The notes below the pieces were generated by a model, which was not told where the DNA came from, made no database searches, and saw nothing but the letters and a program-made list of their open reading frames with translations. The position numbers were made by a program, and so were the translations under genes. From positions 1 to 36,601 of the forward strand of contig SXKB01000313.1 of NCBI GenBank assembly GCA_005778215.1: a stretch of 36,601 bases of DNA, given 5' to 3'. Shown piece by piece: positions 6,533-17,171 of the stretch. Positions within the stretch are counted from its first letter, which is position 1; each line of letters begins with the position of its first letter. This DNA is from Actinomycetota bacterium (lineage in GTDB: Bacteria; Actinomycetota; Acidimicrobiia; Acidimicrobiales; Ilumatobacteraceae).

Positions 6533-9500
6533 TCAGCCTGCCGGCGCTGTCATCGGCGGGAGCACGCGTTCGGCGTCGATGCCCAGCCGGGCGAACACGG
6601 GGACAGCCGACCGCTCGAACCGCTGCGCCTCGTCGCGATCGGTGCCCTCGAGCCGAGCCAGTTCCATCGCAGCGAGCGCCGACTCCCATTCCACGCCGCC
6701 CGCGACAGCGGCCTGACGCGCTGCCTCGAGCGCATCTCGAGCGGACTCGAGGCGTCCCAGCCGAGCGAGCGCGACACCTCGCACGCGCCCGGCCAACGCA
6801 ACCACCGCCGCCCCGCCATCGGCGGCTCGGTCGCCGAGCGCGTCGGCCTCGTCGAGCGCCGCCTGCCATCGGCCGCCGAACAGCAGCACCTCCGCCAGGC
6901 GAGCCTTCGACTCGGCGATGTAGGGCGTGTGCCCCACTGCGGCGAAACCCTCGATGGCCTCCCTGAGCAGTTCGGCCCCTTCATCGGTGCGACCTGCGCG
7001 ACCGACGGCACGCCCGAGGCCGTTCGCCACGGCTGCGACACCGAGTGCGAATCCGCTGGCGCGCCAGATGCGACGGCTCTCGCGCAGGTAGGTCTCGGCC
7101 TCCTCGAACCGTCCCTGGTCGACCAGGACATCGGCCAGGTTGTGGCCGGCCTGCGCAACGCTCACCACGTCACCGCCACGCTGGTAGGCCGCCCGCGATG
7201 CCATGAACGACTCGGTGGCCTCCTTCCAGCGACCTGCCGACAACTGGTCCACTCCACGGTTGATGAGCACCGCACCGAGGCCGATGTAGTCCCCGAGTTC
7301 CTCGAAGATGGGCAGTGCCATCGATCGGTAGCGATCGGCGTCGGCGTCACCGAGCTCACCGAGCGCCCACTCGAGCAGGTAGTAGGCGTGGGCTTCCTCC
7401 TTGCGGTCGCCCGCCGCGATCGCGTGCGGCAACGCCGCCACGCATCGCCGTGCACCGAGGCGGAACTGTTGACGCCACATGTGCACACCAGCCCAGTCGA
7501 GATACAGCTTCGCCCGCTCGCCTTCGGCTTCGATCGTCCGCTCATCGCCCATCGGCTCGAGCAGATGCAGCCCCTTCCGGAACCACGGCTGCGCAGCCGA
7601 GTGCTGGCCCAGGCGCTCGCGCAGCTTGCCCTCCTTGCGGCACAGGCGGGCCGACACCAGTGGATCGTTGCTGCGATGTCGGCGCGCGTTGCGCAGCCCG
7701 TCGCGGGCCAGGTCGTAGCGGCCGGCGAGCAACGCGACATCGGCGAGATCCTCGTATGCCGCAGCGAGTGTCGCGTCGTCGATCTCACCCTTGGTGGCTC
7801 GGGCGTTGTGCAAGGCGCGCTCGAAGAAGCCCGTGGCCTCCACGGTGGCGTACTTCTCGCGGGCTCGTGCGCCGGCGAGGCGGTTGTACTCCCACGCGGA
7901 TCGATGGTCGCCAGATCCGTCGAAGTGCAACGCGAGCAGGCCGAGCCGGGCGTCGTCGGGTTCACCTGATCGCGGCACGAGCGCGCGGGCGATGCGGAGG
8001 TGCAGCTCGCGCCGTCGGCGGAACGGGAGACCGGCATAGGCGACGCGACGCACCAGGTCGTGACTGAAGCGGAGCTCACCCTGATCGGCGACCACGAAGT
8101 CGCCCAACCGGTGCCACGTGACCGGCGCAGTGAACGAGCTGCCGAGTGTGCGGTCGAACAGACGGGTGCTGAACCGGTCACCGAGCACCGCCGCGTACCG
8201 CAGCAATTCGCGGTCCGACGGGGTGAGGCGGTCGATGCGTGCACCGATCAGGTCCTCCAGCGAGCCGGGGATCGCGTCGAGGGATCCGAGCTCACGACGG
8301 GCGTGTGCCAGCTCGAGCAGGAAGAGCGGGTTGCCGTTCGCCCTGGCGCACAGCTCCAACAGGTCGCTCTCGGGGATGCCGGCGTCGTCGGTGACCTCGG
8401 CGGCCAGGTGCACGGCGAGCGCCGCGTCGAGCGGGGCGAGTTCGACCACCTCCGACGCGAAGCCGAGCGCGGACGACAGCCCGCGACCGAGCTCGCGCGA
8501 CGTGAGCAACGTGAACCACCGGGTGTCGTCCACGCCCTCGAGGGCCTTTGCCATCACGTGCGCCGACGCTTCGTCCATCCACATTGCGTCCTCGACCACC
8601 AACAGCAATCCTTCGGGGAGTGCCTGCCGCAAAACCGCCGCGACCGCCGTGCGCAACGCCGCGATGCGATAGTCGGCGCCGAGGTCGTCGACGGTTCGGG
8701 TCGACGGCACGGCAGCGTCCATCGCCGCACCGATGAGCGGTGCGTACTCCGACCACTCGGGGGCGCGATCGGCCAGCCACCCGACCAACGCCGCGCCGGC
8801 ATCCTGCGAGGTGAGATCGGGGTCGATGCGCAACGCGCTGCGCAACAGGACGCGTGCCATGAAGAACGGACGGTCCATCGCAAAGGGTTCACAGGTGAGC
8901 CGCACCACCCGGGTCTCGCCGGCCCGGTCGAGCAACTCGTGCACCAGGCGACTCTTGCCGATGCCCGGTTCGCCGACGATCTCGACCACCATGCCCGGCC
9001 CCTGTGTCGCGGTGACCATCTGGTCGAGCAGGCGGGCGAGTTCGGCCTGCCGACCGAGAAAGGAGGCCTGCGTGGCCACTCTGCCCCGACCCTCGATCCG
9101 CCGGCCCACCGTGGACGCGTGCTGAGGGTGACGCTTGCCCTTCACCATGAACGGCTCGAGCGGCGTGACGTCGAACGGTGTGGCCGACTGCTCCAGCGTC
9201 ACCTGACTGGCCACCATCTCACCGGCGGAGGCCTTGGACATCAACCGGGCCGAGAGGTTCACCGCGTCACCCATCACGGTGTACACCCGACGCCACGAGG
9301 CGCCGACCTCGCCGGCGAACACGTGCCCGGTGTTCACCCCCACACGAACCGGCAAGCCGAGATCCGCGTCGAGGATGGCGCGGCCCACGGCGAGCATGCG
9401 ACCCTCGCCGTCCTCGACCGAGTCGGGTGCGCCGGCGGTGAGGATGAGCTTGATGCCCCCACCGGCCACGTCGGTTGCCAGCAGGCTCACCTCGTGCTCG

Positions 9501-10342
9501 TCGGCAGCATCGACCACCACGCGCACCACGCGGTCGAGTTGTGTCGCCACGGCCGCGGCACCCTCGGCGCGCAGCACGGCATCGACCCCACCGACATGAA
9601 CGAAGCACACCGTGGTGCGACGGTGCTCGGCGCCGTGCACGTCGTCGTCGAGCCGACGACGGATGGCGCGCGGCACGAACGGTGCGAGCAGGTCGCCAGG
9701 GGCGGGCGGCGCACCGAGCGCGGGCCGCTCGGGCTCACCACTCACCCGGCGCAGCAGCACGCCATCGCCCTTGGGAGCGCCCACCCATCCGGGCGGCAGC
9801 AGCGATGCGGTGGCCGCGCTGATGAGGATCTCCCCGGCGTCGGCCGTCGACTCCATGTCGGTGACGGTGGTCGCGTGCTCGCCCAGCACGAACAGTTCGC
9901 GCTGGTGCGAGCCGGCGAGCACGAACAGGAACGGGCCGCTGTGCACCCCCATGGAGATGCGCAGCACCACGCGGCCGCGGTCGGTGACGACCGGCCCGCG
10001 CGCCTTCAACGCGGCGCGCATGCCGTGCGCAGCGCGGCAGGCCCGCTCGGCGTGGCGTTCGCCTGCGAAGAACAGGAAGAGCGCGTCGCCACCGAACTTG
10101 ACGAGGTCGCCACCTTCGCGTTGGGCGACGCCGAGCAGTGATTCGAAGGTGCCATTCAGGAGCACCGTGAGTTCTTCTGCTCCGGCTTTTCCGAGTTCGG
10201 CGAGCTGTTCCGAAAGTTTCGTGAATCCGGAGATGTCAGCGAACACAAAGGACCCAACTGTCTGCCAGTGTCCAGGCCACTGTGCGTCATTTCTCGCACG
10301 GAGTAGCAGCTCAGGCACGAACGGTGTGAGATCCGTCGTCAT
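6533..10342 (-). CDS. Double adenylate/guanylate cyclase-AAA ATPase-TPR signalling protein (soluble-AC-like)
   Basis: A 1269-residue cytoplasmic protein with the layout of soluble adenylyl cyclase: two class III cyclase domains, an NTPase module, then TPRs. Cyclase 1 (about 30-200) keeps the metal Asp36 (FADISGFT) and Asp86 with the purine-selecting Lys82 (LVKFGGDALF). Cyclase 2 (about 235-400) has FVHVGG where the first metal Asp is expected, but keeps VYTVMGDAVNLSAR (Asp359). The NTPase domain opens with FLGRQAEL and has Walker A GEPGIGKS (Lys463) and a Walker B-like LLLVVEDAMWMDE (584-585). Degenerate helical repeats fill about 850-1250. No HTH or membrane helix is seen. A pseudo-heterodimer making cAMP, or a nucleotide-gated scaffold, are both possible. 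ATG 10342 lies 8 nt after an AATAAT -10 box. Confidence 0.9.
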   Translation of the reverse strand: MTTDLTPFVPELLLRARNDAQWPGHWQTVGSFVFADISGFTKLSEQLAELGKAGAEELTVLLNGTFESLLGVAQREGGDLVKFGGDALFLFFAGERHAERACRAAHGMRAALKARGPVVTDRGRVVLRISMGVHSGPFLFVLAGSHQRELFVLGEHATTVTDMESTADAGEILISAATASLLPPGWVGAPKGDGVLLRRVSGEPERPALGAPPAPGDLLAPFVPRAIRRRLDDDVHGAEHRRTTVCFVHVGGVDAVLRAEGAAAVATQLDRVVRVVVDAADEHEVSLLATDVAGGGIKLILTAGAPDSVEDGEGRMLAVGRAILDADLGLPVRVGVNTGHVFAGEVGASWRRVYTVMGDAVNLSARLMSKASAGEMVASQVTLEQSATPFDVTPLEPFMVKGKRHPQHASTVGRRIEGRGRVATQASFLGRQAELARLLDQMVTATQGPGMVVEIVGEPGIGKSRLVHELLDRAGETRVVRLTCEPFAMDRPFFMARVLLRSALRIDPDLTSQDAGAALVGWLADRAPEWSEYAPLIGAAMDAAVPSTRTVDDLGADYRIAALRTAVAAVLRQALPEGLLLVVEDAMWMDEASAHVMAKALEGVDDTRWFTLLTSRELGRGLSSALGFASEVVELAPLDAALAVHLAAEVTDDAGIPESDLLELCARANGNPLFLLELAHARRELGSLDAIPGSLEDLIGARIDRLTPSDRELLRYAAVLGDRFSTRLFDRTLGSSFTAPVTWHRLGDFVVADQGELRFSHDLVRRVAYAGLPFRRRRELHLRIARALVPRSGEPDDARLGLLALHFDGSGDHRSAWEYNRLAGARAREKYATVEATGFFERALHNARATKGEIDDATLAAAYEDLADVALLAGRYDLARDGLRNARRHRSNDPLVSARLCRKEGKLRERLGQHSAAQPWFRKGLHLLEPMGDERTIEAEGERAKLYLDWAGVHMWRQQFRLGARRCVAALPHAIAAGDRKEEAHAYYLLEWALGELGDADADRYRSMALPIFEELGDYIGLGAVLINRGVDQLSAGRWKEATESFMASRAAYQRGGDVVSVAQAGHNLADVLVDQGRFEEAETYLRESRRIWRASGFALGVAAVANGLGRAVGRAGRTDEGAELLREAIEGFAAVGHTPYIAESKARLAEVLLFGGRWQAALDEADALGDRAADGGAAVVALAGRVRGVALARLGRLESARDALEAARQAAVAGGVEWESALAAMELARLEGTDRDEAQRFERSAVPVFARLGIDAERVLPPMTAPAG

Positions 10343-10487: not shown

Positions 10488-13400
10488 ATGAATCGACACC
10501 TCAAGGTCGGAAGTGTCCTCGCACTGGTGCTGAGCACCATCGGCGTCACCGTCGCGTCCACCACACCCACCGGTGCGGCATCCGTGACGCCCTCCATCGT
10601 GCTCAGCAACATCGAGTGCAGCTCGCTCTCACCGGCCGCCCCACATGGCTACAAGGTGACCCCCGGCGCGATCCCCGGCACCTACGCGCTGCCCAGCTCC
10701 GGCGGTGGTACCGCCAGCATCGCCCCCAACGACAACAAGACGTTCAACTGGTCGTCCACCTACCCGCTCGACGCCGTCATCGTCTTCGGCGGCGCCGCTG
10801 CGAACGTCTACCGCTACAACAACGTCACCTCCGACACGTCGCTGTCGTCACCGCTCAAGAACGGCAAGCTGCCCGACATCAGCCACGTGTGGTTCTGCCA
10901 TGACGGCGTCACCCCGGTCACCGTGAGCGCCGGAGCCACCAGCGTGGCCGCGGCCCGTGGCGTGGCGACGAGCGACATCCCCATCTCCGTGCTCGCCATC
11001 GACGATCCGGTCGCCCTCGCGCAGGCGTACGAGCAACTGGCGGGCGCCGCCGTCCTCAAGCAGATCGCCGTCCTCAAGCAGATCGCCGTCCTCAAGCAGG
11101 TGGCACTGCTGAAGCAGATCGCCGTGTTGAAGGCCGTCGCCGTGCTCAAGCAGGTGGCCGTGTTGAAGGCCGTCGCCTTGCTGAAGCAGGTGGCCGTGCT
11201 CAAGCAGATCGACGGCTCTCCGTTCCTCACCCCGCTCTCCTCGCTGAACCTGAACGTGCTCGACAGCGCCGGCAACGTGGTCACGTGGGAACGGGTGCTC
11301 GCAGGCACCACGTACGAGGGCTGGCCGTTGCAGAGCGTCACGTTCGCCGACGTCGCCGAACTGCTCGGCACCGCCACGGACACCACCGGCGACGGGATCG
11401 TCGACTACCCCGGTGGCCTCGGCCTCATCGCCAACGCCTCGCTGTTCGACCTCGACAGCAGCGGTGCACTCGTGAGCCAGATCAGCCTGTTGTCGATCCT
11501 GCTGCTCAGCACGCCGCTCGCCTCGCTGTCCACCGCGGCCGGCCGCACCATCGACTGGTGCGGCCTGTCGGCGCCGTACACCGGCGGTGACTGCCTCGTC
11601 GACGACGCCAACGGCAACCTGCGCCCGGACGCCACCCTGTTCGAGCTCGCGCTGTACGGAGTGCCCTCCAGCATCGTGCCGGTGAACGAGATCTCGATGG
11701 CCCAGCTGCGCCCTGCGCTCGCCAGTTCGCCGCTCGGCAGCCTCTTGAGCGGCGACCTCGACGGCAACGGGACCGCCGAGACGGCGGTGCGCTGTACCAC
11801 CGCCAACACCCTCGGCCAGTGCCTCGCCGAGATCATCACGCCCGCCGAGTTCCCCTGGGAGGACATGCCCATTGCGAGCATGGACCTCCAGCGGTTCGCC
11901 CTCGGTGAGCGGCTGCCCGTCACGGTGCGGTTCAGCGTGGGCGCCACGGTTCCCACCGCTCGCATCACGCTCCCCACCGGCTTCGTCTACGACGCCGGCG
12001 CCGGCACCACCCTGTGCCAGATGGGCACCTGCTCGGCCATCGCGCCCGTGTCGGTGAGCACCACCGATCCGCAGGTGCTCACCTTCGGACCGGCCGGACT
12101 GCCGGCCGGTCTGGTCGAACTCCGCCTCACCGCAGCGCCGAAGGGACTGCTGGACGGCGCTCCCGGGCAGCCGGCACGCAACGCCGGACCGGTCCGCCTG
12201 CGGCTCACCGCCGGTGCCGCCGTGCAGGACGCCGCCTCGTCGGCGGTCACGGTCACCGATCCATGGGTGGCCGACACCGAGCCCACCGTCGTGCCCGACA
12301 CCCTCTACTTCGGATCGCTCGCTGGCGGTGCCGTCGACGACTACGACGTCCTGCTCGCCCCCGCGCAGCAAGGTTCGTGGGTGTCAGTGCGACTGAAGGC
12401 GCTGTCGGGCGATCTCGACGGCGACCTCGCGCTGTACGCGGCAGCCCCTCCTGCGGCGGTCGGCAGCGCAGCGCTGCTGAAGGCCGTGCCCGTGCCCGGC
12501 GCCAGCGCAGAGCCGCTGGCCGATCCGAGCAGCGACGGCGAGACCGATCTCGCCCCGGAGACGTTGCAGGACGTACCCACCACGCCCACCGACCCCGGCT
12601 TCCCGTTGCTCCGTGGCGTGTCGGCCAACCGAGGCGACACCGACGAGGTGCAGACGCTGTCGGAGGGCTCGCCCACCGCCAGCACGCGCTATCGCATCAA
12701 GGTGAGTGCCTTCGGCACCTCTGCCGGCGACTACACCGTGCGCGTCATCGCGGCGCCGTCGGGCTACGCCTCGTGCCCCGCCACCACGTTCGCCGGCTCC
12801 GTCGGCACACCCGTGCCCGTGGGCGGCGTTGCTTCGCCCTCCGGTCTCATCGTCTACAACACCCGAACCACCAGCGGCACCCTGCTCGGCAGCAACACTG
12901 CGCTCACCGGCAACACGCTGTTCAATCTCGCACGCGCCAACGGCAGCTGGTTGTTGCCCGTCACGCCGGCCGACAGCGATCTGTGGACCACGGCCAACCC
13001 CACCACCAAGTACGACTGCGCACCGGTCGCGGCGAACGCGACGGTGCAGGCCATCAGCGACGCCATTCGTGCGCAGAAGGCCGGCCCGTTGCCCGGCATC
13101 TCGTCGATCGTGCTCGTGGGCGGCGACGACGCACTGCCGTTCTACCGCAACGCCGACACCACGACGCTGGCGAACGAGTCGTCGCATGCCGACCAGGTCG
13201 GCACCGACAACCCGATCTCGGCCTCGCAGGGCAACCGGTTCTTCATGACGGACGATCCGTACGGCACCCTCGAACCGATCCCGTGGCTCGACCGCACGTT
13301 CAGCGTGCCCGACCTCGCCGTGGGCCGACTGGTCGAGACCGACACCGAGATCCAGGGTCAGATCGGGCTGTACCTCGCCAATGACGGCGCCCTCACGGCG

Positions 13401-16400
13401 TCGACCGCGCTGGTCACCGGCTACGACTTCCTGTCCGACGGCGCTGCAACGACGGTGTCCGCGCTCGCCGACGGTGGGCTGCGCACCAGTGAGCTGATCG
13501 ATCCCGTCGGCACGGGTGCGTGGACCGCGGAGTCGGTACGTGACGCACTCGCCCTCGACCCCGACGTGGCGGCGATCAACGCCCACTTCTCCCAGTACGA
13601 GTTGCTGTCGTCGAAGGGTGACAGCACGGGCGAGTACGACGTGCTCGACGTGGCGCCCGGCGGCACCGGCATCGATCTGCCGACCGGCATTCTCGAGGGT
13701 TCCGTCCTGTTCAGCGCCGGCTGCCACGCCGGCATGAGCGTGCCGGACGCCTACGCCACGAACACCACCAAGTACCCGCTGCTGCGGGGCGCCACGGCCG
13801 GCATCCCCTACGACTGGGCGCAGGCGTTGTCGCAGCGCCGGTCGGCCGTGTGGGTGGCCAGCTTCGGCTACGGCTACGGCGCGGTCGACGACGTCGCCCT
13901 CACCGAGCGCCTGATGGGCCTGTACGCCAAGTATCTCGTGGACCCCACGGTCGCCAATGCCGGCCAGGCACTGGTGAAGGCGAAGCAGGAGTACTTCGCC
14001 ACCCAGGGCGTGTACGGCTCGTACGACGAGAAGGCGCTGCAGGAGGTCGTGTTCTACGGCATCCCGACGTTCCGTCTCGGCACCACGTCGCCGGCGAGCC
14101 CGAGCCTTCAGCTCGCAGCCACCAGCACGGGTGACGCGGCTCCTGCGCCGTTGGCGCCGGTTCCCGGCACCAACGGCATGCCGACGGCTGCCTCGCTCGG
14201 CAACCTGACGTTCGACCTCACCGCGCGTCCCAGCGCCGATGGCACCGCCTACACCGTGAACGGCGAGACCCTTGCCGTCAACGGCTACCCGGTGATGCCG
14301 AAGACATCGGTCGACGTCACCGTGCCCGGACTGAGCGCACGCGGCGCCGCGATCGAGCGGATGACCACCACGCTGCTCGACGGTGTCCTGCCGCAGATCG
14401 CCCGGGCCACGGTCGACAACTCGCTGCTCGAGCCCTCGCGCCGGCCCTCGACGGTGGTCTTCCCCACCGCGTTCCAGTCGATCGGCGGCACCAACGCCAC
14501 CCAGCGCCTCGTCGTCGTCCCCGGCCAGTTCAGCGACCTCGACGACGCCCCCGGGCAGCATCGTGGTCAGCAGTTGCTGCTGAACAGCGGTGACTTCACC
14601 GTCTACTACGCCGACGCCTCGACCGCCGGCGACCTCACCCGCCCCTACATCCAGGAGAGCACCGCATCGATCGGCGCCTCGAACGTGGTGTTGTTCCGGG
14701 TGAAGACGACCGACCTGCGCGGCCCGCAGGACACCATCGACCCGACGGGCGTTCGCCGCGTGCTCGTGCAGTACGACGCCTCCACCGCGACGGACCTCGG
14801 CCAGCCGAACCCGTGGATCCCCGTCGAGTTGCAGATGGACTCCACGGGCACCTGGGTGGGCGCACTGGTCACCGGCAACACCGCCGGCCGGTATCTCGTG
14901 CAGGCATTCGATGGCGCCGGCAACCAGGCCATCAGCCAGTTCAAGGGCGCCTACTACGTCGCCGGCGGCGTGTCGCCGCAGGCCGTGGCCGTGGTCACCG
15001 AGGGCACCTTGGCCGACACCGGCTGGTACCGCACCGATCCGGTGGGCGTGAGCCTGTTCGTCGATGGCCGCCCGGCGGTGGGCGACGACGGTTACTCGTA
15101 CGTGCTGGGCAACAGCGCACCGCAGGCGTACGCCGGCACGTTCGACCCGGGCGAGGGTCCTGTCGACGTGCGCTTCATCGCTCCCGCCGGCAAGCCCACG
15201 CCGCCGCCGCTCACCGTGCAGAAGGACACTCGGGCGCCGAGCGCGGCGCTCACCGATCCCGTGAGCCTGGCGCTCATCGGCGAGCCCATCGCCCCGAGCG
15301 ACTGCTTCGCCACCGATCCCGATCCTGGCTCCACCGTGCCGGGCTGCACCCCACTCGACCCGACCGTGGTCACCGTGGGTTCGGTCACGTACTCGCTCAC
15401 CAATGCGAACGCCACCGACCTCGCCGGGAACCGTTCGACCACCGTGTCGCAGACCGCCGTCATCGTCGACGCCGTACGCGACGAGAACGGTGCCATCGTC
15501 GGCGCCAACGGCGTCACCGTCATCGCCGGTGGCCAGCTGTACGACCAGACCACCATCACGGTCGACGGCGTCGTGCTCACGGGCGTGCTCGACGCACCCA
15601 ACCGCACCTACTCGGTGTCGTTCAACGACCTCGGCTCCCACACCGTCGTCGTCACCGTGCCGGGCAGCGACCCCTACACCTTCACGGTGTCGGTCGATGA
15701 CGCCACCGCACCGACGCTCACCCCGCCCGGGGATCTTCCCGAGTTCTTCGAGGCGACGTCGCCGGCCGGTGCGCCCGTCACCTTCACGGTGTCGGTCACC
15801 GACAACTACGACAGCGGCCTCGTCGCCACGTGCACCCCGGCGTCGGGCAGCGTGCTGCCGATCGGCACCTCCACCGTCGACTGCTCGGCCACGGACTCCA
15901 GTGGCAACACGGGGACGACGCAGTTCAACGTCCTCGTGAAGGACACCACCGCACCGACGCTCGGCGTGCCGGCCGACATCACCCAGGAACTCGCCGTCGC
16001 CGCGGGCAACGTGGTCACGTTCACCACCACCGCCACCGATGCCGTCGATGCCAGCGTGACGACCTCGTGCTCGCCGGCGTCGGGATCGGTGTTCCCGAAG
16101 GGCACCACGACGGTGCAGTGCAGCGCAACCGATGCGAGCGGCAACGCCGCCACAGGGTCGTTCACCGTCACCGTACGCGACACCACGGTGCCGGTGTTCA
16201 CGAGCATCCCGAACATCGGTCCGGTGGAGGCCCGGCGTCAGGGCGGCGACTTCGTCGGCTACTCCACGCCCGACACCACCGACGCAGGTGGTCCGGTCAG
16301 CGTGAGCTGCAGCCCTGCGTCCGACTCGTTCTTCCCGCTCGGCACCACCACGGTGGGTTGCACGGCCATCGATGCCGAAGGCCTCACCGCCACCGCATCC

Positions 16401-17171
16401 TTCACCGTCACGGTGCGCGACACGACGGCACCCACCCTGATCGGCGTGCCCACCGGCATCACCGCACCGGGCACCACCACCGCCGGCGCCAAGGTCTCCT
16501 GGACCGCCCCCACCGCCACCGATGCGGTGTGGGCAGGCGCAGGCATCACCGTGGCATGCCTGCCGGCGAGCGGTTCCACGTTCGCCTACGGCAACACCAC
16601 GGTCACGTGCACCGCCACCGACGGCTCGGGCAACCGGTCGAGCCAACAGTTCGTGGTCACGGTCGCCGTGGCATACCGGTACAACGGCTTCTTCTCACCG
16701 GTGAACATGTCGACCGCCAGCAAGCCCGGCGTCTACGACGGCAGCGGCCTCACGTACGTGGTCAACAGTGTGAACGGTGGTCGCAACGTGCCGTTCAAGT
16801 GGGAGGCGTACGACAACATCACGAGCAACCGACTCGTCAGCGTGTCGAACGTCGAGATCATCGTCGAGAGCTACGCGGCATTCGCCGCACGACCCGAGTG
16901 GACGAACCGCAAGCTGGGACCCAGCCGGGCGACGCTCCCCACCGGCAACCCGTGCGCCGACACCGCCACCCGCGTCATCATCCCGGTGTCGGGTGCCACC
17001 ACCGGCAAGACCACGTCGCTGAAGTTCGACAACAACCAGTTCAACATCGGCGTGCAGATGCCCGCCAAGCCGGCGAGAGCAGCCGACAACTGCTTCGTGG
17101 CGTGGACCCGCATCACCGGCCCGGTGAAGGACCCGCTGCCCGGCATCGTCACACTGTTCGTGCTCACCTGA
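10488..17171 (+). CDS. Giant secreted C25 (gingipain-like) peptidase with hexapeptide repeat and HYR domains
   Basis: A 2227-residue secreted multidomain protein. Residues 1-32 form a signal peptide (basic MNRHLK, then VGSVLALVLSTIGVTVAS). Residues 188-241 are nine tandem hexapeptides of the AVLKQI type. Calcium-loop-like segments follow (DTTGDGIVD near 300; GDLDGNGTAE). About 785-1200 resembles a peptidase C25/caspase-fold domain: VLVGGDDALPFYR, PDLAVGRLVET, candidate catalytic His1033 (INAHFSQYE) and Cys1079 (SAGCHAG). Four HYR-type domains with paired cysteines span about 1737-2060. A C-terminal PxKF-like domain (NVPFKWEAYD) ends the protein. No sortase motif or terminal membrane helix is seen, so it is likely released or held through its repeats. 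Likely roles are extracellular proteolysis or adhesion; substrate unknown. A GTG three codons earlier is an alternative start. It stands alone and ends at a strong hairpin. Confidence 0.88.
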   Translation: MNRHLKVGSVLALVLSTIGVTVASTTPTGAASVTPSIVLSNIECSSLSPAAPHGYKVTPGAIPGTYALPSSGGGTASIAPNDNKTFNWSSTYPLDAVIVFGGAAANVYRYNNVTSDTSLSSPLKNGKLPDISHVWFCHDGVTPVTVSAGATSVAAARGVATSDIPISVLAIDDPVALAQAYEQLAGAAVLKQIAVLKQIAVLKQVALLKQIAVLKAVAVLKQVAVLKAVALLKQVAVLKQIDGSPFLTPLSSLNLNVLDSAGNVVTWERVLAGTTYEGWPLQSVTFADVAELLGTATDTTGDGIVDYPGGLGLIANASLFDLDSSGALVSQISLLSILLLSTPLASLSTAAGRTIDWCGLSAPYTGGDCLVDDANGNLRPDATLFELALYGVPSSIVPVNEISMAQLRPALASSPLGSLLSGDLDGNGTAETAVRCTTANTLGQCLAEIITPAEFPWEDMPIASMDLQRFALGERLPVTVRFSVGATVPTARITLPTGFVYDAGAGTTLCQMGTCSAIAPVSVSTTDPQVLTFGPAGLPAGLVELRLTAAPKGLLDGAPGQPARNAGPVRLRLTAGAAVQDAASSAVTVTDPWVADTEPTVVPDTLYFGSLAGGAVDDYDVLLAPAQQGSWVSVRLKALSGDLDGDLALYAAAPPAAVGSAALLKAVPVPGASAEPLADPSSDGETDLAPETLQDVPTTPTDPGFPLLRGVSANRGDTDEVQTLSEGSPTASTRYRIKVSAFGTSAGDYTVRVIAAPSGYASCPATTFAGSVGTPVPVGGVASPSGLIVYNTRTTSGTLLGSNTALTGNTLFNLARANGSWLLPVTPADSDLWTTANPTTKYDCAPVAANATVQAISDAIRAQKAGPLPGISSIVLVGGDDALPFYRNADTTTLANESSHADQVGTDNPISASQGNRFFMTDDPYGTLEPIPWLDRTFSVPDLAVGRLVETDTEIQGQIGLYLANDGALTASTALVTGYDFLSDGAATTVSALADGGLRTSELIDPVGTGAWTAESVRDALALDPDVAAINAHFSQYELLSSKGDSTGEYDVLDVAPGGTGIDLPTGILEGSVLFSAGCHAGMSVPDAYATNTTKYPLLRGATAGIPYDWAQALSQRRSAVWVASFGYGYGAVDDVALTERLMGLYAKYLVDPTVANAGQALVKAKQEYFATQGVYGSYDEKALQEVVFYGIPTFRLGTTSPASPSLQLAATSTGDAAPAPLAPVPGTNGMPTAASLGNLTFDLTARPSADGTAYTVNGETLAVNGYPVMPKTSVDVTVPGLSARGAAIERMTTTLLDGVLPQIARATVDNSLLEPSRRPSTVVFPTAFQSIGGTNATQRLVVVPGQFSDLDDAPGQHRGQQLLLNSGDFTVYYADASTAGDLTRPYIQESTASIGASNVVLFRVKTTDLRGPQDTIDPTGVRRVLVQYDASTATDLGQPNPWIPVELQMDSTGTWVGALVTGNTAGRYLVQAFDGAGNQAISQFKGAYYVAGGVSPQAVAVVTEGTLADTGWYRTDPVGVSLFVDGRPAVGDDGYSYVLGNSAPQAYAGTFDPGEGPVDVRFIAPAGKPTPPPLTVQKDTRAPSAALTDPVSLALIGEPIAPSDCFATDPDPGSTVPGCTPLDPTVVTVGSVTYSLTNANATDLAGNRSTTVSQTAVIVDAVRDENGAIVGANGVTVIAGGQLYDQTTITVDGVVLTGVLDAPNRTYSVSFNDLGSHTVVVTVPGSDPYTFTVSVDDATAPTLTPPGDLPEFFEATSPAGAPVTFTVSVTDNYDSGLVATCTPASGSVLPIGTSTVDCSATDSSGNTGTTQFNVLVKDTTAPTLGVPADITQELAVAAGNVVTFTTTATDAVDASVTTSCSPASGSVFPKGTTTVQCSATDASGNAATGSFTVTVRDTTVPVFTSIPNIGPVEARRQGGDFVGYSTPDTTDAGGPVSVSCSPASDSFFPLGTTTVGCTAIDAEGLTATASFTVTVRDTTAPTLIGVPTGITAPGTTTAGAKVSWTAPTATDAVWAGAGITVACLPASGSTFAYGNTTVTCTATDGSGNRSSQQFVVTVAVAYRYNGFFSPVNMSTASKPGVYDGSGLTYVVNSVNGGRNVPFKWEAYDNITSNRLVSVSNVEIIVESYAAFAARPEWTNRKLGPSRATLPTGNPCADTATRVIIPVSGATTGKTTSLKFDNNQFNIGVQMPAKPARAADNCFVAWTRITGPVKDPLPGIVTLFVLT
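11049..11210 (+). repeat. Nine tandem 18-bp units encoding an (A)(V/L)LK(Q/A)(I/V) hexapeptide
   Basis: The units read AVLKQI, AVLKQI, AVLKQV, ALLKQI, AVLKAV, AVLKQV, AVLKAV, ALLKQV, AVLKQI. Units 1 and 2 are identical in DNA, as are units 5 and 7, and units 5-6 resemble 7-8 as a 36-bp duplication. Other units differ at synonymous positions while keeping the peptide, which suggests selection on the protein. It lies within the giant C25 protein. Confidence 0.95.
15697..16668 (+). repeat. Four tandem HYR-type domain repeats (about 240 bp each)
   Basis: Copies begin near 15697, 15942, 16179 and 16419. Each starts with a D-x-T-x-P motif, contains C-x-PASG or C-x-PASD, then TTV-x-C-x-A-x-D, and ends in a V-x-V-x-D linker (last copy VTVAV). 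The two cysteines per copy could form a disulfide in a secreted beta-sandwich. They are internal to the giant C25 protein. Confidence 0.85.

Follow-up and report, generated by a model that had tools for sequence, protein, structure and literature searches.

The stretch of DNA analysed here (36,601 nucleotides, hereafter the window) raises the question of what a strictly regular six-residue repeat is doing in a giant, apparently exported protein. We found nine contiguous 18-bp units at 11049-11210, in frame in an ORF at 10488-17171 (+) that encodes 2227 aa, and TRF recovered the array independently (period 18 bp, 9.1 copies, score 156), in agreement with an earlier note on the same DNA. The peptide (aa 188-241) reads AVLKQI AVLKQI AVLKQV ALLKQI AVLKAV AVLKQV AVLKAV ALLKQV AVLKQI, with Leu-Lys at positions 3-4 in 9/9 units, as the note had reported. 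Units 1 and 2 are identical in DNA, as are units 5 and 7, which leaves 7 distinct DNA versions among the nine and bears out the duplication already noticed for these two pairs. The argument refers to the following features.

6533..10342, minus strand: divergent partner gene, 1269 aa, with nucleotidyl cyclase, AAA_16 ATPase and TPR (Pfam)
10488..17171, plus strand: CDS of the C25-like repeat protein, 2227 aa (ORF, Pfam and reading by eye)
11049..11210, plus strand: slot 1, nine AVLKQI-type hexads (sequence reading and TRF)
11823..14081, plus strand: conserved scaffold and C25-like domain, query A3, aa 446-1198 (profile alignment A3)
12471..12488, plus strand: slot 2, a tenth hexad, ALLKAV (aa 662-667), which precedes the protease domain (unit-pattern match)
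13584..13586, plus strand: His1033, candidate catalytic His (identical in 35/35 aligned members)
13722..13724, plus strand: Cys1079, within G-C-H, candidate catalytic Cys (identical in 35/35 aligned members)

Read from its start, the window protein has an N-terminal hydrophobic segment of signal-peptide type, an N-terminal part, slot 1, a scaffold, a PPC-like region with slot 2, the C25-like domain and four HYR domains (PF02494, 4 stretches, E 3.4e-34 in Pfam). The signal peptide and the PPC-like region were assigned by eye, and PPC itself matched just 2 of the 4 A3 members, with E values no better than 0.16. As in the earlier note, the hexads of this exported C25-like protein come after its N-terminal part; the protease region follows them. 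We found Peptidase_C25 (PF01364) in 1 of the 4 A3 members (E 2.6e-9); L073 matches it below the cut-off (E 0.0019), and it was absent from the window protein in a search up to E 1 and from L057, L016 and L077 up to E 0.01. The alignment in which the His and Cys are invariant has 35 members, truncated L023 being excluded, and by analogy with C25 we take His1033 and Cys1079 as candidate catalytic residues. The repeat-slot family consists of giant exported C25-like proteins, probably cysteine proteases.

The A3 family was found in 28 of 397 genomes of the order (E <= 1e-30) and in 7 of 396 genomes of the phylum (E <= 1e-20). Two peptide patterns run across the genome collection added 10 loci, assigned to Actinomycetes, Actinomycetota, Acidimicrobiia, Acidimicrobiaceae and Ilumatobacteraceae, with two weak ones in Thermoanaerobaculaceae and Desulfobacterales. 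Against the PDB, the A3 profile gave two weak matches (E 0.033 and 0.78) that are not meaningful. Our searches found no literature on Peptidase C25 in Acidimicrobi, and we recognised the repeat-slot family in none of the literature found; absence is claimed for these searches only. Three other proteins with signal-like starts (L007, L011, L093) share the window protein's N-terminal domain and have neither repeat slot nor protease part within the stretch viewed.

We defined slot 1 as the region from the N-terminal part to the conserved A3 part and slot 2 as the PPC-like region preceding the protease. With same-contig duplicates counted once and L024 dropped (no profile match), the family has 44 distinct loci, and 37 of them have a short tandem repeat in at least one of the two slots. 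Five of the other seven are contig-cut or unreadable there (L018, L065, L066, L076, L119), and two are readable yet have no array (L025, L120). Phylum loci added once the slot idea existed had a repeat in 4 of 6 cases. Read by eye, there are 28 different words of 5-12 residues:

6 residues: AVLKQI, SPVLRS, APNLRR
7 residues: GTGLRFS
8 residues: GSGSLSFR
10 residues: APIPLLPILS
11 residues: NLPLGSLGTIG
12 residues: GDSIRLEGIGLG
5 residues (n = 20), for example: QLRQV, PLGAI, PLRSV, PLRSI, SPIRF, PLSSI, PISSL, PLAAV
5 residues, further examples: PIANL, PLNAF, PIRST, PMRST, SPSAF, GLRTF, PTSRV

Members with 5-residue words often have several repeat blocks in slot 1. These results show that the slot is common to the family, with one word per protein and words that differ among proteins. 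A second subfamily (L077-L083) has SPSAF/SPSVF arrays immediately before the protease domain and no upstream array in the six members whose N-terminal side is visible (some partly; L078 is cut). Two paralogs of genome G348, L064 and L068, bear different words (PLNAF and PLSAI) with a partner gene near each, which counts against one shared processing factor.

The word itself is far more restricted than the slot. A strong AVLKQI match was found in the window's own genome only (1/397 genomes of the order), and the hexad query gave ten weak matches in six other genomes of the order. Eight of these ten places were read (L102 and L103 were left out). The GVVRQV-like hexads of L095 were rejected since their frame is antisense to, and runs past the end of, an apparent aldo-keto reductase gene, as were the LAILTQ-like hexads of L099, whose open frame has just 42 aa; five further places had other sequence in the frame read, and the stretch read at L101 did not reach the match. 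A sequence match of the hexad block in the PDB to the designed chain D-310HD (7qdi, E 0.0019) was judged to be low-complexity likeness.

In a tree built on the C25-like domain of 36 proteins, the window protein groups with L016 (SPVLRS; bootstrap/SH-aLRT 99/96), next to L017 (GSGSLSFR; 100/99) and then L023 (GTGLRFS; 96/95), the L023 row being long and incomplete. Because of this tree, words of 6, 6, 8 and 7 residues are seen to share one clade; the APNLRR protein falls elsewhere, outside it. The earlier note had named two findings as counting against a functional module, that the hexads occur in one sequence alone and that relatives have unrelated sequence in their place. Taken literally, both were found, the second in a congeneric relative with 7% identity, yet the slot is common to the family, and the relative's unlike sequence also forms an ordered repeat there, as in most members read. 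The functional module therefore stands and the AVLKQI module does not. The recurrence with variable copy number that the note had looked for is present as a slot recurring in C25-like proteins, but the word varies more than the copy number.

Seven protein pairs were compared codon by codon, the array against both flanks, and array peptide identity was above both flanks in five. The arrays of G521/G030 are 0.79 identical over 106 ungapped residues, between genera (flanks 0.45 and 0.73), with the same base at 0.37 of fourfold sites; those of L073/L074 are 0.77 identical (flanks 0.44 and 0.51; fourfold 0.48), of L070/L071 0.83 (0.50 and 0.55; 0.45), of L059/L060 0.96 (0.72 and 0.58; 0.26) and of L081/L082 0.96 (0.88 and 0.89; 0.64). 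Fourfold base sharing was about equal in the arrays (0.26-0.64) and the flanks (0.29-0.69) of these five pairs, except in L070/L071, where it is higher in the array (0.45 vs 0.30 and 0.29). Hence, since arrays stay above their flanks while fourfold sites drift, selection on the peptide is clear where two proteins have the same or almost the same word. L059 and L060 are paralogs in one genome (G249), both with SPIRF, and their 0.96 array identity goes with fourfold sharing of just 0.26.

The earlier note had called the window's peptide selected; that is supported in the family (5/7 pairs), while in the window's own two pairs the array is below its flanks. Array identity is 0.30 to L016 (flanks 0.70 and 0.61) and 0.07 to L017 (flanks 0.57 and 0.57), so that here the array is less conserved than its surroundings and the word switches wholesale. 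The synonymous variation pointed out in the note is real, but its size calls for caution, the ten window hexads (the tenth included) having a same-codon rate of 0.66 vs 0.62 predicted by the codon usage of the gene itself. Among 28 proteins, 7 (the window protein is one) have a rate below expectation or within 0.05 of it, and the other 21 exceed it by 0.06-0.41. Hence, DNA-level duplication shapes the arrays too.

We found the clearest case of a changed word in L073 (PIRST) and L074 (PMRST), where the second position is ATC in 9/9 units of the former and ATG in 10/10 units of the latter, other codons varying. The Ile/Met difference is present in the tandem block, in a lone unit some 70 residues later, and in slot 2, some 430 residues beyond that. 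Hence, the same difference is found at three or more separate positions in the gene. The order of unit changes is unreadable, as re-pairing the units yields about equal codon sharing, and one-by-one change is not distinguishable on this measure from re-expansion inside the L073/L074 block. A shared AGC codon was rejected as proof of unit-by-unit orthology, re-pairing reaching the observed sharing in 2012/5000 and 3463/5000 trials.

Some relatives repeat their own word at the slot 2 position. With words permuted 10,000 times among 25 proteins, we found own-word 4-mers in slot 2 of 8 proteins (55 4-mers in total); permutation reaches 8 proteins in 3/10,000 trials and 55 4-mers in 0/10,000. The cases are clear in L016, L023, L057, L073 and L074, and the call is based on one or two 4-mers in L022, L060 and L068. 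Slot 2 held no own 4-mer in 17 of the 25, the window protein included: its ALLKAV, a tenth hexad that the earlier note does not have, matches through the unit pattern alone and is uncounted in this test, and that pattern matched anywhere in 6/5000 shuffles of the rest of the protein. These results show that words switch array-wide and that separate copies follow in several proteins.

As to fold, the 5-residue members are the most informative. Interruptions of 6-40 residues separate units in 17 proteins with such words; 120 of 130 have a length divisible by five, and the pentads inserted there are mostly of the form D-L-[AGQ]-[GSA]-[TSA] (also written D-L-x-[GSA]-[TSA]), near the pentapeptide consensus as quoted in the part of PMC8145042 seen. 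The array of L019 passes Pfam Pentapeptide_4 (77.3 bits vs a cut-off of 38) and PF00805 (52.4 bits vs 20.2), although most of the pure 5-residue words tested fall outside the pentapeptide consensus. The AlphaFold model of the PIANL array of L021 places strands at 23-27, 43-47, 63-67, 83-88 and 102-108, about one per 20 residues; this is a weak, single-sequence model (mean pLDDT 55.6; block, in the first 120 residues, 50-76). It had no Foldseek match at E <= 0.001, and VIA-align ranked leucine-rich repeats (Z 11.0) above the pentapeptide protein QnrB1 (Z 9.4), scores within the range of common arrangements for repeats. Periodicity of the interruptions at twenty residues is weak (lag 4 in 15/1000 shuffles, lag 3 in 37/1000; eight lags tried). 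For the hexads, AlphaFold on aa 31-482 with three relatives gave a mean pLDDT of 49, with 24-29 in the repeat block. The 5-residue members thus look like pentapeptide-type solenoids, and by position and kinship we infer that the hexad may be a six-residue relative.

A relative of the divergent partner gene (tblastn 1e-10) accompanies the C25/repeat gene within the stretch retrieved at 32 of 43 distinct loci, mostly adjoining and a few kb away at most, upstream or downstream and on either strand; seven of the 11 loci missing it have under 500 bases of upstream sequence. The best genomic partner relative was the one near the C25-type gene in 10/10 picked genomes having that gene, which hold one to six partner relatives each (1e-10). 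Among 397 genomes, the C25-type gene was found in 28, the partner (E <= 1e-50) in 42 and both in 25 (Fisher p 2.6e-25, uncorrected for kinship). The two lie within 12 kb on one contig in 22 of the 25, and in the remaining three the C25-type gene is near a contig end. At the threshold used, 17 genomes have the partner without the C25-type gene; the flanks of 15 of these lone genes, several cut by contig ends, had no ORF with a 5- to 8-mer occurring five times or more. Hence, the cyclase-ATPase-TPR gene is a conserved partner of the C25/repeat gene.

Taken together, the repeat block has the look of a module selected for structure or recognition, not of junk. At a probability of about 0.5, we favor reading the hexad block as the form taken in the window species by a fixed-region repeat module that would work through a self-matching stack or through recognition. 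The module occupies a fixed region of the giant exported C25-like proteins, some members having a further copy before the protease domain, and its units would form a regular solenoid in which like turns stack. The common 5-residue words would give a pentapeptide-type solenoid with 20 residues a coil; in the window's clade, with words of 6, 7 and 8 residues, the turns of the variant would be longer. Likeness of units would matter if like side chains stack on like, or if a protein's arrays recognise one another, and a change would persist only once every unit of the protein, slot 2 too, had taken it up. Outside the cell, the module may keep the protease domain positioned or latent, or may link copies of the protein to one another.

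Other readings share part of this evidence. C25 gingipains cleave after Arg or Lys, and the units could be repeated cleavage or pseudo-substrate sites of the protein's own C25-like protease, the word tracking its specificity in cis. Such self-processing would suit the basic residue after Leu, Ile or Met in AVLK, SPVLR, GTGLR, PLRSV, PIRST, PMRST, QLRQV, SPIRF and GLRTF, the invariant candidate His and Cys (35/35), the place of slot 2 directly before the protease domain with the same word in some proteins, and paralogs of one genome that may differ in word, as a cis rule allows. However, the word has no Lys or Arg in 19 of 31 proteins tested (omitting L023 and four others whose word is unreadable), and the strict register of five kept through interruptions points to a fold. 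No acidic protease column followed the basic words convincingly, the best p being 0.0013 before any correction for kinship and for the several hundred columns. We regard self-processing as unlikely. A lysine-rich membrane-active or polyanion-binding segment, along the lines of the earlier note's suggestion, is far less credible still. The 54 residues hold nine Lys flanked by hydrophobic residues, and in an ideal strand every one of them falls on a single face (resultant 1.00), but on an ideal helix they spread evenly round the axis (resultant 0.00), many words in the same slot have no basic residue (PLGAI, PISSL, PLNAF, PIANL, SPSAF), and sister L016 (SPVLRS) has Pro in nearly every unit.

A low-complexity spacer, that is, a neutral or weakly constrained linker grown by slippage whose word is an accident of the amplified unit, is already strained by the 5/7 pairs in which arrays exceed both flanks with fourfold drift. 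It must also contend with the register kept in 120/130 interruptions and with own words in slot 2 beyond the permutation level, and we consider it doubtful, even though the window's clade changes word and length freely (arrays 30% and 7% identical), 21/28 proteins have a same-codon excess and window units 1=2 and 5=7 are identical. Finally, the array might be a protein-specific self-recognition word that pairs solely with copies of the same word (slot 2 in cis, or molecules of one strain), an adhesive or assembly barcode drifting whole under a dedicated cytosolic cyclase-ATPase-TPR partner. We think this quite improbable; if it were true, its evolutionary mark would be concerted change of the peptide at dispersed sites without recent DNA copying.

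The feature is real, a protein-specific, wholesale-switching repeat module, probably a solenoid, in exported C25-like proteins whose genes travel with a cyclase-ATPase-TPR gene. Units alike in peptide, with drifting codons and words that switch wholesale, offer a way to ask how repeat proteins change their units together, and the conserved pairing with the cyclase-ATPase-TPR gene gives a first handle on the purpose of these giant actinobacterial proteins.

Pentapeptide repeat proteins (PF00805, PF13599) form a right-handed quadrilateral β-helix with 20 residues a coil. The repeat-slot family is like them in its Leu-centred units and in the register of five, with D-L-x-G-[TS]-like interruptions, that its 5-residue members keep. 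It is unlike them in words that are near-uniform within a protein, often with Pro before Leu, and the window's unit has a period of 6 and Val before Leu. As far as the part of PMC8145042 seen goes, a pentapeptide repeat protein has at least eight contiguous five-residue consensus units, and 0/9 window units fit the consensus given there. We found no PF00805 or PF13599 match in the window protein (up to E 0.1), and a literature search on pentapeptide repeats with concerted evolution surfaced a Plasmodium study. The sole weak Pfam match of the hexads is the LED repeat PF20854 (LED_rpt; aa 188-242, E 0.0046), at 17.2 bits vs a curated cut-off of 59, which is probably low-complexity similarity; no curated cut-off is reached, in line with the earlier note, which had matched the hexad to no repeat family. 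Searches for literature on the LED repeat in a Pfam context found none.

The hexapeptide rule of left-handed β-helices is [LIV]-[GAED]-X2-[STAV]-X. The window array is like these repeats in its period of six with aliphatic residues, and the earlier note was right that the rule does not apply: in all six registers, no window unit fits (0/9, or 0/8 in shifted registers). With Peptidase family C25 of the gingipain type, the repeat-slot family shares an invariant His and Cys; the window protein differs from that type in its lack of a PF01364 match up to E 1, in coming from Actinomycetota and in its HYR domains and repeat slots.
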